From NCBI GenBank assembly GCA_944323135.1, contig CALURI010000002.1, forward strand, positions 62,001 through 126,000: 64,000 bases of DNA, read 5' to 3'. Below the pieces are notes generated by a model. The model ran no database searches. It was not told the origin of the DNA and worked only from the letters and a program-made list of their open reading frames with translations. Shown here piece by piece: positions 41,130 through 55,871 of this stretch. The position numbers and the translations under genes are program-made. Every line of letters starts with the position of its first letter. Within the stretch, counting starts at the first letter, position 1. The DNA is from Candidatus Gastranaerophilales bacterium (GTDB lineage Bacteria; Cyanobacteriota; Vampirovibrionia; Gastranaerophilales; Gastranaerophilaceae).

Positions 41130-41189
41130 ATGAATATTCAATTTATCCAAATCCGACGAATAATAAATGTATTGAAAGGCTTGTTGTAA
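41130..41189 (+). CDS. Micro-ORF 1, 19 residues (candidate leader peptide)
   Basis: ATG at the predicted transcription start, reading MNIQFIQIRRIINVLKGLL and a stop. It is followed by an inverted repeat and terminator. Translation is not supported by a ribosome-binding site; it would have to be leaderless. Confidence 0.3.
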   Translation: MNIQFIQIRRIINVLKGLL

Positions 41190-41236
41190 AAAATAAGACG
41201 CATTTATTATTGTCGTAAAAAAATTTTTTATTACTT

Positions 41237-41265
41237 GACCTTTCCCCCCGAAAGGTCTTTTTTTT
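41237..41265 (+). terminator. Intrinsic terminator inside the leader
   Basis: GACCTTTC (41237-41244), loop CCCCC, GAAAGGTC (41250-41257), then eight or more T. A competing GAAAGG at 41174-41179 inside micro-ORF 1 could pair with CCTTTC. Confidence 0.85.
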
Positions 41266-41347
41266 GTAAAAAATCGTTAATATTCAAAGAATTTAACGCA
41301 AGAAAAAATATTTAGTACATTTAAAGGAAAAGTAAAAGGTGAAATTT

Positions 41348-41431
41348 ATGCAAAAAAACATCCGACGATATTCAATAATCCAAACTAATAACCCAATTAT
41401 TAAACTGACGAATTTAATCTGGGGTTTATAA
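41348..41431 (+). CDS. Micro-ORF 2, 27 residues
   Basis: MQKNIRRYSIIQTNNPIIKL, then TNLIWGL and a stop. AAAGGTG lies seven bases before the ATG. It ends 34 bases before the membrane-protein gene. It could be a leader peptide or a small protein; length alone proves nothing. Confidence 0.35.
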   Translation: MQKNIRRYSIIQTNNPIIKLTNLIWGL

Positions 41432-41465
41432 TCCCGGAGATTATTGAAAACGGAAAGGAAATTTA

Positions 41466-42785
41466 ATGATACCAGCAATTACAGCAACTGAATATATATA
41501 CTCAAAATTAGGGAGCAATGCTTCACTTTTACCATTAGCAGTAAAAGATATTGCAAACAGCACAGGTTTAACAGTAGGTTCATATATAACAGGGAAAAAT
41601 GTAGAGGGAAAAGACAGATTTATTGATGAATTCGGAACAGAAGCAATATGGCTTGGCGGAATTCCGTTTTTCAAAAAGTTTACGGATTTAACATTATACA
41701 AAATACTAGGTATTGACCCAAAATTTGATGTCAGAAATCTTAAAAATAAAGAGATTTTAGAAAAAGCTATTGAAAAAGCCCCAACAGAAAAAATTAAACA
41801 AAGTATTATTAAAGCTTCAAAAAATCCAAAATATACTACTAACCTTGCAATTGCAAAATTCGGATTTTCAACATTTGCAGCAATATTTACTTATGCAGCA
41901 TTAACAAAATTCAGACAAAAATACAGACTTGAAGAAGCCAAAGAAGAATTAAGAGAAAAAAATAAAAATAAAATAGAAAAATTTCAAAGTATTTACACAC
42001 AAAAAGTTCCAAAAGCATTTTCTTTAGTGCACAAAAATAATAAACAAAACAATAAAGATATATCTTTCAACGGATCTATCCAAGATTTCATGTTCAATCC
42101 AGTAAAAAATCTTATGATTTTAGACGGTTCAATTACTGCTGAAAGACTTGCAAGTTCTCAAAGCAATCAAGAATTAATAAATTATATTATCAAAGAAGGC
42201 GGAACTTGGTTCTTTATGTATTTTGCCGGAGCAATGATTCAAAACCACTTACAAAATAAAGCAAAAGTTCCTATAAAACTTGATTCAATGATTATTGAAA
42301 GCAAAGAATTAAAACAAGCTTTTAAAGATAATTCTATAAAAACAAGTCTTGATGAGTATACCGCAAAAATTAATAAAGACGCAAAAGACATAGATATATA
42401 CAATTTTATCCACGAAAACCCTGATAATTTTATTGTAAAAATGGCAAAAAAATCTAAATTAATCAAAACAATAAAAAATACAGATAAAATTGATACCAGA
42501 GCTTATATTGATATTAATGATATTAAAGATTTAAAATTAAATCTTGAAGAGTTATATAATAAAGCTCCAAAAGATGATATTGAAAAATACTTAAAGGATG
42601 TTGTAAAAGCAAAAAGAGGAGCAGTTCTGAAAAATATCGGAATATGTATTGGTGCTTTAGGAGTTGCAGTTCCGGCATTAATGATTGCTATGAGATATAT
42701 TTTACCTAACAACAGAGAATATAAAGTTATGGAAATAGCAAAACAGGAAAATCACAAAGAAAACTCTTTATCCAAAACTGCCTGA
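41466..42785 (+). CDS. Orphan membrane-associated protein with internal ISFNG motif
   Basis: A 439-residue protein with hydrophobic segments near residues 130-155, 245-265 and 385-405 and long charged helices between. I recognise no family. DISFNGSIQDFMFNP near residue 197 carries the (I/V)SFxG motif seen at the N-termini of other orphans. Its layout (N-terminal region ending in GIPFFKKF, central hydrophobic pair, C-terminal hydrophobic hairpin, basic tail) resembles the orphan at 53989-55197. AAAGGA precedes the ATG. Its last 34 bases overlap the convergent flavoprotein gene. Confidence 0.6.
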   Translation: MIPAITATEYIYSKLGSNASLLPLAVKDIANSTGLTVGSYITGKNVEGKDRFIDEFGTEAIWLGGIPFFKKFTDLTLYKILGIDPKFDVRNLKNKEILEKAIEKAPTEKIKQSIIKASKNPKYTTNLAIAKFGFSTFAAIFTYAALTKFRQKYRLEEAKEELREKNKNKIEKFQSIYTQKVPKAFSLVHKNNKQNNKDISFNGSIQDFMFNPVKNLMILDGSITAERLASSQSNQELINYIIKEGGTWFFMYFAGAMIQNHLQNKAKVPIKLDSMIIESKELKQAFKDNSIKTSLDEYTAKINKDAKDIDIYNFIHENPDNFIVKMAKKSKLIKTIKNTDKIDTRAYIDINDIKDLKLNLEELYNKAPKDDIEKYLKDVVKAKRGAVLKNIGICIGALGVAVPALMIAMRYILPNNREYKVMEIAKQENHKENSLSKTA

Positions 42786-53988: not shown

Positions 53989-55197
53989 TTAAATTTTTTG
54001 ATTTTTCTTTACTTCTCTGTTATACCTGAATTTAGTAAACAAATTAGATGAACCTGCAATAAAAAATCCCATTACACCTATACCGAATAATAACGGTAAA
54101 CCTGCTATTAAAACTTTTTGTTTAAGCAATTTTTTATACATTTTACCGGCATTTTCACCGTAATTTTCAGATATTTTCTTCAAATCTTTCAATAATGGAA
54201 CTTCTAATTTTTCATTAATAAGTTCCCTACATTTCCCGTTTTTATAAAGGAATTTTTTAAATCCTTTTTCTAATAACTCATTCCCGCAAATTATATAAAA
54301 TCCTACAATCGGATACCTAAATAAAGTTTCAAGGAAATTCTGCTTTCCTCTGTCTTTTGATGCCCCGAAATACCCTGCTCCGCCAACAAGAACACAAGAA
54401 GTAAGTTGACCTCTGCTTAATGCAAGTTTGCCATTATTATCGGCAAAATCAAGACTTAAATACTTATTGAAAAAATCTGCTTTTTTCTTATTGTTTTTAA
54501 AAAATTTTGTACCGGGAGCAAGAATTATTTCCGAGAAATTACGTAAAATTTTTGAATTTTCCCCGCGTTTTAAAAGTAAGACGCTTGCAGCAAGACAGCC
54601 GGCATAAATTCCTGCTGCTAATTTTATATGCTTTTTAGCACTTTTTTCAACTTTTTGTGCGTGTTCTTTATCCTTAGGTTTATCTTTATTTAAGTTTGCA
54701 ATATTTTCAAAATCTGACTGTTTAAAAACCTTTAGAGTCATTAAATTTTTAAAATAATTAAGGGTATATTCCACAAGAGGAATAGCAAAAGCGCTCAATG
54801 CAATTGCCGCCTTTACAGGTAATAATTTTCTATTTTCAACTGATTTATCAATTTTTAGTAAATGAGATGCAGGTGTTGATATCTGTTGTTTTAAATCTTT
54901 TGAAAGCTTTCCTGAATATAACTTTCTAAAAATACCTTCTCCCAACAATGCCGGGAAATAATAAACCAAAACAGATTCTGATAATTCTAAAAAACTATTC
55001 TCAGCTAAATCAGCCTTGGTTCTTGCAAATACAGCTTTAGGAACAAGTCCTGTTGCACTGTCTTGAATAAATCTTATATTCGAAAGACCTGCACCGCCTT
55101 CTTGAACTTTAATTATTTTACTTGCTGCTTTTAAACCCAAACCGATATTGCCTGAATTTGTAAATGATATATTATTTGTAACTTTATTTGTATTCAT
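53989..55197 (-). CDS. Orphan polytopic membrane protein with ISFTNSG motif, behind the Trp-codon leader
   Basis: A 402-residue protein. It opens with MNTNKVTNNISFTNSGNIGLG, another (I/V)SF-type N-terminus. Four or five hydrophobic segments follow, with charged helices between and a basic C-terminus (KFRYNREVKKNQKI). No family is recognised. It resembles the orphan at 41466-42785 in layout. The ATG at 55197 has AAGGA seven bases upstream. Transcription should come from the promoter at 55416-55388 through an attenuator-like leader ending in a terminator 40 bases before the ATG, so expression is probably conditional. Confidence 0.6.
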   Translation of the reverse strand: MNTNKVTNNISFTNSGNIGLGLKAASKIIKVQEGGAGLSNIRFIQDSATGLVPKAVFARTKADLAENSFLELSESVLVYYFPALLGEGIFRKLYSGKLSKDLKQQISTPASHLLKIDKSVENRKLLPVKAAIALSAFAIPLVEYTLNYFKNLMTLKVFKQSDFENIANLNKDKPKDKEHAQKVEKSAKKHIKLAAGIYAGCLAASVLLLKRGENSKILRNFSEIILAPGTKFFKNNKKKADFFNKYLSLDFADNNGKLALSRGQLTSCVLVGGAGYFGASKDRGKQNFLETLFRYPIVGFYIICGNELLEKGFKKFLYKNGKCRELINEKLEVPLLKDLKKISENYGENAGKMYKKLLKQKVLIAGLPLLFGIGVMGFFIAGSSNLFTKFRYNREVKKNQKI

Positions 55198-55237
55198 TAG
55201 TAATTCCTTTTTAAAATAAACTGATATCAACAAAAAA

Positions 55238-55261
55238 TGACCTGTTATAAATAACAGGTCA
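55238..55261 (-). terminator. Terminator (arms 3:4) of the attenuator-like leader
   Basis: TGACCTGTTA (55261-55252), loop TTTA, TAACAGGTCA (55247-55238), then TTTTTT. A perfect ten-bp stem lying between the leader ORF and the membrane-protein gene. Confidence 0.88.
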
Positions 55262-55328
55262 TTTTAAAATAATAAAATATAATTATCAGCTTATTGCCAA
55301 CTTAAAAGACCTGTTATTTGAAACAGGT
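55252..55328 (-). promoter_or_regulatory. Attenuator arms 1, 2 and 3 with alternative pairings
   Basis: On the minus strand: arm 1 ACCTGTT (55328-55322), arm 2 AACAGGT inside ATAACAGGTC (55317-55308), arm 3 GACCTGTTAT (55260-55251). Arms 1:2 pair over seven bases, arms 2:3 over ten perfect bases, and arms 3:4 form the terminator, so 2:3 excludes 3:4. This is the logic of amino-acid attenuators. Confidence 0.7.
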
Positions 55329-55365
55329 GCCACCAAGATTGAGTTTTTACATTTAAGTTTGGCAT
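55291..55365 (-). CDS. Candidate leader peptide with tandem Trp codons
   Basis: A 24-codon ORF starting with ATG at 55365: MPNLNVKTQSWWHLFQITGL then LSWQ and stop. TGG TGG lie directly before arm 1 of the hairpin set and a third TGG before the stop. AAAGGA lies 11 bases upstream. A ribosome stalled at the Trp pair would cover arm 1 and free arm 2 to pair with arm 3, preventing termination. The ORF could instead be a small protein. Confidence 0.6.
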   Translation of the reverse strand: MPNLNVKTQSWWHLFQITGLLSWQ

Positions 55366-55387
55366 AAAATTACTTTTCCTTTAAAAA

Positions 55388-55416
55388 ATACTACCATAGT
55401 AATAATAAAAAGTCAA
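55388..55416 (-). promoter_or_regulatory. Promoter of the Trp-codon leader
   Basis: Minus-strand TTGACT (55416-55411), a 17-base spacer, TAGTAT (55393-55388). It sits just after the stop of the YhcH-family gene, giving the leader its own start. Confidence 0.7.
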
Positions 55417-55421
55417 ATTAC

Positions 55422-55871
55422 CTATTTTACCAAAATTTTTACTACAACTTTTTTAACTTTTGAAGGTTTATCAAGGGCCATTTGCGGTCTATGTGCTTCA
55501 TGCGGATATATCAAAACAAATCTTTGCACAGACAATTTAAATGAAGCATCAGGCAGCTCTTCAGGATTTTCAAAAAACATTATATCTCTTTTTTCATCGT
55601 AATCTTCACTTACTATAAGCTTATTAAAGGATATACAATCCAATTGTTCATTACCGTCTAAAAGCATTTGAATATCAATATATTTTTTATGAGCTTCGAA
55701 TTTACATTTATCAATTGTTCTGGTTTCATAAACATCAACATTGGCATAAACATTTTCATCTATTTCATAATGCCCGACAGGAGTTTGAGCATTTAATGAC
55801 ATCAAAAATTTAGCAGTTTTTTCAGATATTTCACCATATTTTAGTATATTTTCCAAATTATCACAAATCAT
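55422..55871 (-). CDS. YhcH/YjgK/YiaL-family protein
   Basis: A 149-residue cupin-like protein of the YhcH family (relatives include EbgC and anomerase-like sialic-acid-cluster proteins). HYEIDENVYANVDVYETRTI, KFEAHKKYIDIQMLLDGNE with metal-ligand His/Glu, and FVLIYPHEAHRPQMAL are typical. It follows the transketolase half-gene by six bases on the same strand. A sugar-isomer or anomer role is expected; nanE and a ROK kinase are 42 kb away. Confidence 0.85.
   Translation of the reverse strand: MICDNLENILKYGEISEKTAKFLMSLNAQTPVGHYEIDENVYANVDVYETRTIDKCKFEAHKKYIDIQMLLDGNEQLDCISFNKLIVSEDYDEKRDIMFFENPEELPDASFKLSVQRFVLIYPHEAHRPQMALDKPSKVKKVVVKILVK

Follow-up and report, generated by a model that had tools for sequence, protein, structure and literature searches.

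A putative tryptophan-sensing attenuator in front of an unclassified membrane protein of gut Melainabacteria

Classical attenuators guard biosynthetic operons. Here, a leader of similar design stands in front of a membrane protein in bacteria that have apparently lost the pathway. The window, meaning the whole 64,000-nucleotide stretch of DNA that was analysed, belongs to a Candidatus Gastranaerophilales (gut Melainabacteria) genome of 1.95 Mb that is 99.96% complete. Comparison of sequences leads us to the reading, to which we assign a probability of roughly 0.8, that the leader is a ribosome-mediated transcription attenuator that would sense charged tRNA-Trp and control one gene.

Layout of the leader

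The leader sits between a YhcH-like gene (end at 55422) and a 402-residue ORF (ATG at 55197). An initial annotation had described a promoter, a Shine-Dalgarno sequence, a 24-codon ORF with TGG TGG, four arms and a T-run, and each lies on the minus strand where it was placed; the pairings 1:2 (7 bp), 2:3 (10 bp) and 3:4 are also as described. It had missed a third Trp codon (55299-55297) and two further helices, A:B and C:D. The features are as follows.

55388..55416, minus strand: sigma-70-like promoter, TTGACT (55416-55411), 17-nt spacer, TAGTAT (55393-55388)
55377..55382, minus strand: Shine-Dalgarno sequence of the leader ORF, AAAGGA, conserved in alignments A1 and A3
55291..55365, minus strand: leader ORF of 24 codons, MPNLNVKTQSWWHLFQITGLLSWQ followed by the stop
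55352..55362, minus strand: arm A, partner of arm B
55330..55335, minus strand: tandem Trp codons TGG TGG (W11, W12), invariant columns in alignment A3
55322..55328, minus strand: arm 1, ACCTGTT, partner of arm 2
55308..55317, minus strand: arm 2, ATAACAGGTC, partner of arm 1 or arm 3, covarying
55297..55306, minus strand: arm B, partner of arm A
55297..55299, minus strand: third Trp codon (W23), the penultimate codon, present in all long-form leaders
55284..55293, minus strand: arm C, overlapping the leader stop codon, partner of arm D
55251..55265, minus strand: arm 3, including GACCTGTTAT at 55260-55251, antiterminator with arm 2 and terminator with arm 4, covarying
55232..55247, minus strand: arm 4 and a T6 run, intrinsic terminator by prediction and covariation
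55217..55226, minus strand: arm D, immediately 5' of the regulated gene's Shine-Dalgarno sequence, covarying with arm C
55205..55210, minus strand: Shine-Dalgarno sequence of the regulated gene, AAAGGA, recognized from the sequence
53989..55197, minus strand: regulated gene (ATG at 55197, a conserved start with a Shine-Dalgarno sequence), 402 residues, basic, helical, membrane-type, no Trp

The first twelve codons of the leader ORF are ATG CCA AAC TTA AAT GTA AAA ACT CAA TCT TGG TGG, and the remainder reads CAC CTG TTT CAA ATA ACA GGT CTT TTA AGT TGG CAA TAA. Helix A:B joins the start region of the leader to the region around the third Trp codon, and helix C:D joins the stop region to the bases immediately preceding the Shine-Dalgarno sequence of the gene. 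The leader RNA folds with a z-score of -4.2, none of 200 shuffles being equally stable, and the region holds three terminator-like sites where 0.3 are expected. The promoter match is weak (9 of 12 positions; four such matches were found against 2.8 expected by chance), and in the genus comparison related -35 and -10 hexamers occur at the same place upstream of the ortholog leaders. For the regulated gene, the ORF list offered a TTG start at 55233; this was rejected in favor of the ATG at 55197, which has a Shine-Dalgarno sequence and is conserved.

Exclusive pairings and the proposed mechanism

Covariation was assessed in 34 long-form Trp leaders (alignment A3). In the terminator state 90% of cells form standard pairs, and two-sided changes number 84 against 26.7 in shuffles (none of 500 reaches this value), and slid versions never exceed 17; for pairing 2:3 the corresponding counts are 17 and 5.2, and since the sequences are related these counts are not strict probabilities and the controls are the better guide. 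In a partner-swap test, 2:3, 3:4, A:B and C:D each outperform all 5000 permutations when paired with their own partner, while three control arm combinations show no own-partner advantage. Five of the six pairs scored for C:D have two-sided changes, and A:B is the weakest helix by pair counts, with 81% of its cells paired. The check on arm covariation that had been proposed for this locus is thus borne out for 2:3 and 3:4, and for A:B and C:D as well; the signal for 1:2 is weak (316 of 5000 permutations reach the own-partner value) because its arms are almost invariant. The locus therefore combines an antiterminator (2:3) with a mutually exclusive terminator (3:4 and U-run), both of which covary, and a predicted leader ORF with a conserved Shine-Dalgarno sequence and, directly before arm 1, conserved TGG TGG codons, as would suit sensing codons.

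Modelling of RNA folding agrees with this arrangement. With a ribosome placed on W11/W12 and the RNA ending at arm 3, the probability of 2:3 is 1.00 in 32 of 32 sequences. A ribosome at the stop codon gives a probability of 1.00 for 3:4, and with no ribosome in the model 1:2 and 3:4 dominate. Once arm 4 is present at equilibrium, 3:4 beats 2:3 in most sequences (mean 0.74), and antitermination must therefore be kinetic, with 2:3 forming first.

The mechanism that we propose is as follows. When tRNA-Trp is charged, the ribosome would run on to the leader stop codon, which lies 14 nt beyond the end of arm 2 here and in all 32 modelled sequences; given this distance and usual footprints, we infer that it would cover the 3' part of arm 2, so that 3:4 would form and transcription would end. 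When Trp is scarce, the ribosome would stall on W11/W12 and cover arm 1, 2:3 would form ahead of the synthesis of arm 4, and transcription would continue into the gene. Transcription of arm B would allow helix A:B to shut the initiation region of the leader, leaving the report mainly to the first, coupled ribosome. Helix C:D would form in the read-through mRNA beside the gene's Shine-Dalgarno sequence. The third Trp codon fits this scheme poorly, since stalling at that codon should place the ribosome over arm 2 and favor termination.

Another account would have the terminator merely close the upstream operon, with the small ORF encoding an unrelated small protein. The YhcH-like gene does end just upstream, at 55422. 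However, arm 2 lies inside the small ORF and covaries with arm 3, the leader motif described below is found only upstream of the regulated gene, and the leader stays in place where the upstream genes differ, all of which makes this account extremely improbable.

Leader classes and protein clades

Homologs of the regulated gene occur in 12 of the 33 genomes of the genus. The leader, with its ORF, is present in all nine close genus orthologs that have upstream DNA (81-86% identity); these nine include the window's own copy, and the upstream DNA of a tenth ortholog is lost at a contig end. The leader ORF is likewise kept in 39 long-form leaders. At the level of the family, homologs are present in 204 of 383 genomes and 28 of 41 genera, and the gene's named relatives are nearly all from Candidatus Gastranaerophilales. 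Several records under other names, namely L134 (Fusobacterium sp. CAG:439), L195 (Muribaculaceae), L209 (Clostridiaceae), L203 (Clostridia) and L152 and L154 (Heliobacteriaceae), contain this Gastranaerophilales family, and the tree places them with it; they are probably misnamed metagenome bins of Gastranaerophilales. No phage relatives of the gene were found.

The 79 named loci fall into 45 with Trp-type leaders (TGG TGG), 33 with Met-type leaders (runs of ATG) and one weak Met-type (L194). Twelve of these assignments were missed by our script and made by eye: two Trp-type, L165 and L168, which count as such via a TTG start, and ten Met-type, including L194. Leader type matches protein clade exactly, 45 against 34, separated by one branch with support of 100/100 in a maximum-likelihood tree. 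By sequence and comparison, the link between leader and gene is strictly one-to-one in the Trp protein clade, and the sister clade has an equivalent layout in which Met codons take the place of the Trp codons. The TGG pair, which the initial annotation had singled out for comparison, is present at all 45 Trp-clade loci. The annotation's Trp-codon logic with mutually exclusive arms has held up: among relatives carrying the gene, neither the Trp codons nor the 2:3 complementarity has been lost, and the case that it had named as a refutation did not arise.

A motif combining the tandem Trp codons with the arms, TGGTGGNNNCTGT(4-12)ACAGG, has a single match in each of 82 of the 383 family genomes, and a reversed control has one match. 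Where the genome has a listed homolog the match could be checked, and in 72 of 72 such cases it precedes a homolog by 50-260 nt and shares its strand. The upstream genes vary between loci and the leader is constant; neighbour clustering gives no constant partner gene, the commonest cluster being present at 17 of the 79 loci. The description of the gene as an orphan is therefore apt for its neighbourhood but not for the gene itself, which is a member of a large family divided by its regulation into two classes.

Long Trp leaders stop past arm 2, carry the third Trp codon and share the consensus QSWWxLxxxTGxLSW[QR] before the stop. Other Trp leaders are apparently leaderless and stop inside arm 1, as in L063 (MTNRNSLNLNRNWWRL, then stop). 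The stop codon past arm 2, noted earlier as a difference from E. coli, is thus correct here but only a trait of one clade, as deeper relatives such as L063 and L153 stop inside arm 1. In L063, L068, L073, L083, L086, L088 and similar loci, the ATG lies a few bases past the -10 box without a Shine-Dalgarno sequence, and these ORFs are predicted to encode leader peptides on leaderless mRNAs.

Met-type leaders contain ATG runs, for example MIYTNTMMMQMMMQSLIRGGHCCANRMC before the stop. Pairings 2:3 and 3:4 are both possible in all 33 that can be scored, and none of 5000 permutations reaches the own-partner energies. A search pattern for these leaders, ATGATGATGNNNATGATGATG, proved unspecific, most matches having other middle codons, and gave no measure of exclusivity. 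With few exceptions, the Met leaders L181-L191 and L192-L212 finish in RM, RMC or RMR; the Met codon is last or next to last, comparable to the W[QR] ending of long-form Trp leaders. Both classes seem to share a design with a second sensing codon near the stop.

Two other readings of the locus were weighed. One is an arrest like that of TnaC, in which free Trp would stall the ribosome at the end of the leader and excess Trp would induce the gene. Standard long-form leaders place their last residue 12 positions after the second W, the spacing that separates W12 from P24 in E. coli TnaC, and the third W and the [QR]-stop are conserved. Yet the deeper relatives L063, L153 and L152 end a few codons past the tandem Trp codons and retain the arms, Met-rich leaders have the same layout, the arms are of the intrinsic-terminator type, and a Trp-free product fits starvation rather than excess. 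We regard such an arrest as very improbable. The other reading is that the terminated leader RNA or the peptide acts in trans and control in cis is secondary, as has been reported for rhizobial rnTrpL and peTrpL (PMC7298713). Conservation of peptide residues beyond the Trp codons, and helices A:B and C:D that exceed what attenuation needs, would suit an action in trans; the arms inside the ORF nevertheless explain much of this conservation, the leader always adjoins the same gene, and we consider a main role in trans very improbable.

The window contains a second attenuator-like leader (41132-42785, plus strand; relatives L213-L242). Its ORF, apparently leaderless, contains CGA CGA and in many cases AGA codons (M..[IT]RRIVR..MKGLL, then stop); arm 2 is GAAAGG and the terminator GACCTTTCCCCCCGAAAGGTC-T8. 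This leader looks to be Arg-sensing. It stands upstream of an unrelated conserved membrane-type protein with homologs in all 33 genus genomes; homology of this protein to the Trp/Met family is unsupported (hhalign probability 1%). Between the terminator and the gene lies a strongly conserved second ORF of 27 codons (41349-41432, plus strand; L214-L242), ending in ..IRRNSIIKANAPIVKLMNLIWGL before the stop and containing CGA CGA. Alternative hairpins are possible there (GACGA/TCGTC and CCCCAA/TTGGGG), and the ORF is perhaps a translational layer of control. A further observation concerns an I/V-S-F-x-G/N motif near the N-terminus of, or inside, otherwise unrelated window proteins (52205, 3721 on the minus strand, 53989-55197 and 41466-42785), in the forms HISFG, HISFQG, NISFTN and DISFNG. 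It is possibly a lineage-specific signal.

The regulated protein and comparison with known systems

The 402-residue protein has no Pfam, NCBIfam or PDB-sequence match. It is an unclassified membrane protein and, as the initial annotation held, not an enzyme of Trp biosynthesis; nothing points to the indole-related role that had also been suggested. Hydropathy gives three strong and about three weaker hydrophobic segments, and the protein is strongly basic, with 67 K+R against 33 D+E. AlphaFold with 72 sequences returns a confident all-helical model with long helices (pLDDT 86.9, pTM 0.85), which replaced a run with 13 sequences (pLDDT 64). Foldseek finds nothing at E<=0.001. The best match in a VIA structure comparison, to the transmembrane domains of ABC exporters (Z 5.6, rmsd 8.4, 211 residues aligned), was rejected as within chance for helical models.

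The composition of the two clades mirrors their leaders. All 45 Trp-type proteins contain no Trp, while Met-type proteins contain one to four; the Met-type Trp sites 51, 292 and 387 are occupied in all 39 Trp-type rows by L, by L or A, and by F, respectively. Among neighbouring genes used as a control, none of 41 membrane-like ones and 8 of 70 with a similar length are without Trp. Met is present at 6.7 per 1000 residues in Met-type proteins, 12.3 in Trp-type proteins and about 22 (22.4) in neighbouring genes. A protein that a cell has to produce while the amino acid in question is short would be expected to show such depletion, and the absence of Trp where the Met-type keeps it is an unusually clear evolutionary sign of synthesis during Trp starvation.

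The biosynthesis genes point the same way. In the family, trpA is absent from 337 of 383 genomes, including that of the window; a true trpB is present in only one of 33 genus genomes and is absent from this one; and the MetH activation domain and MetE catalytic domain were found in none of the 32 genus genomes searched, although gene absence in MAGs is not proof of auxotrophy. Given these losses, the genus probably must import both sensed amino acids. The loss of trpA and trpB, the Trp-free products and the parallel Met system together provide indirect but strong backing for a response to charged tRNA-Trp.

We tentatively take a Trp importer, or a component of one, to be the likeliest role of the product; a Trp transporter is plausible, though the protein matches no known transporter family, gives no confident structural match and has no conserved partner genes. 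Made without Trp, the product would most likely help apparent auxotrophs to get Trp from the gut, and the Met-type paralogs would do likewise for Met. TrpP (PF17099) was found in none of 32 genus genomes. The SNF family is absent from the window's genome, and an SNF-type transporter occurs in only three genomes, all without the regulated gene. Presence of the Trp-type gene does not correlate with absence of trpA: nine of the 82 motif-positive genomes, all from one genus (g41), have trpA, close to the base rate of 46 in 383, and in the window's genus trpA and the regulated gene are both missing from most genomes. This patchy pattern indicates that the gene is not a requirement for living without Trp synthesis, nor does it suffice for it.

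It is also possible, at somewhat under even odds, that the attenuator is correctly read but the product is a starvation-response membrane protein acting on the membrane, translation or protein turnover, and not a transporter. The strongly basic composition, the long helices, the roughly three strong hydrophobic segments, the lack of a transporter match and the patchy presence of the gene among apparent auxotrophs speak for such a protein, whereas Trp and Met clades that do not exchange leaders suggest an amino-acid-specific function. Returning to import, we offer more speculatively a general scheme in which gut Melainabacteria would use one attenuator per amino acid (Trp, Met and Arg) to control self-depleted scavenging membrane proteins, the Trp/Met family being a new importer class. 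The division of one protein family into Trp- and Met-controlled branches provides a function prediction for a lineage-specific, uncharacterised family, and the two leader types would offer natural sensors of limiting Trp and of limiting Met in the gut. No earlier account turned up in the literature searched, which covers the field in part.

At gathering threshold Rfam reports only tRNAs in the window, with no trp-leader match and RF00513 not listed. The Rfam family Bacteroid-trp (RF01692), likewise a leader with a Trp-codon peptide outside Proteobacteria but in a different phylum, gives a weak overlapping match (20.9 bits against a gathering score of 49, E 6.3). In E. coli, the TnaC leader lies upstream of the tna operon genes for Trp use and uptake. 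The leader here resembles it in encoding a short Trp-containing peptide of similar length; TnaC, however, responds to excess free Trp, whereas this leader has intrinsic terminator and antiterminator arms and a Met version. If the transporter idea holds, the product would share its role with TrpP and other known bacterial Trp uptake proteins, to which no sequence relation was found. The enterobacterial trp leader likewise has tandem Trp codons immediately ahead of arm 1, arms pairing 1:2, 2:3 and 3:4, and a U-run terminator; short-form leaders that stop inside arm 1 are much like that of E. coli. The differences lie in the target, which instead of the trp genes is an unclassified membrane protein of a genus that lacks trpAB, and in the leader itself, which in this clade has a stop past arm 2, a third Trp codon and helices A:B and C:D. 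Sequence comparison thus gives good support to a putative attenuator of the classical type whose setting is new, accompanied by additional conserved helices and a Met-sensing sister class.
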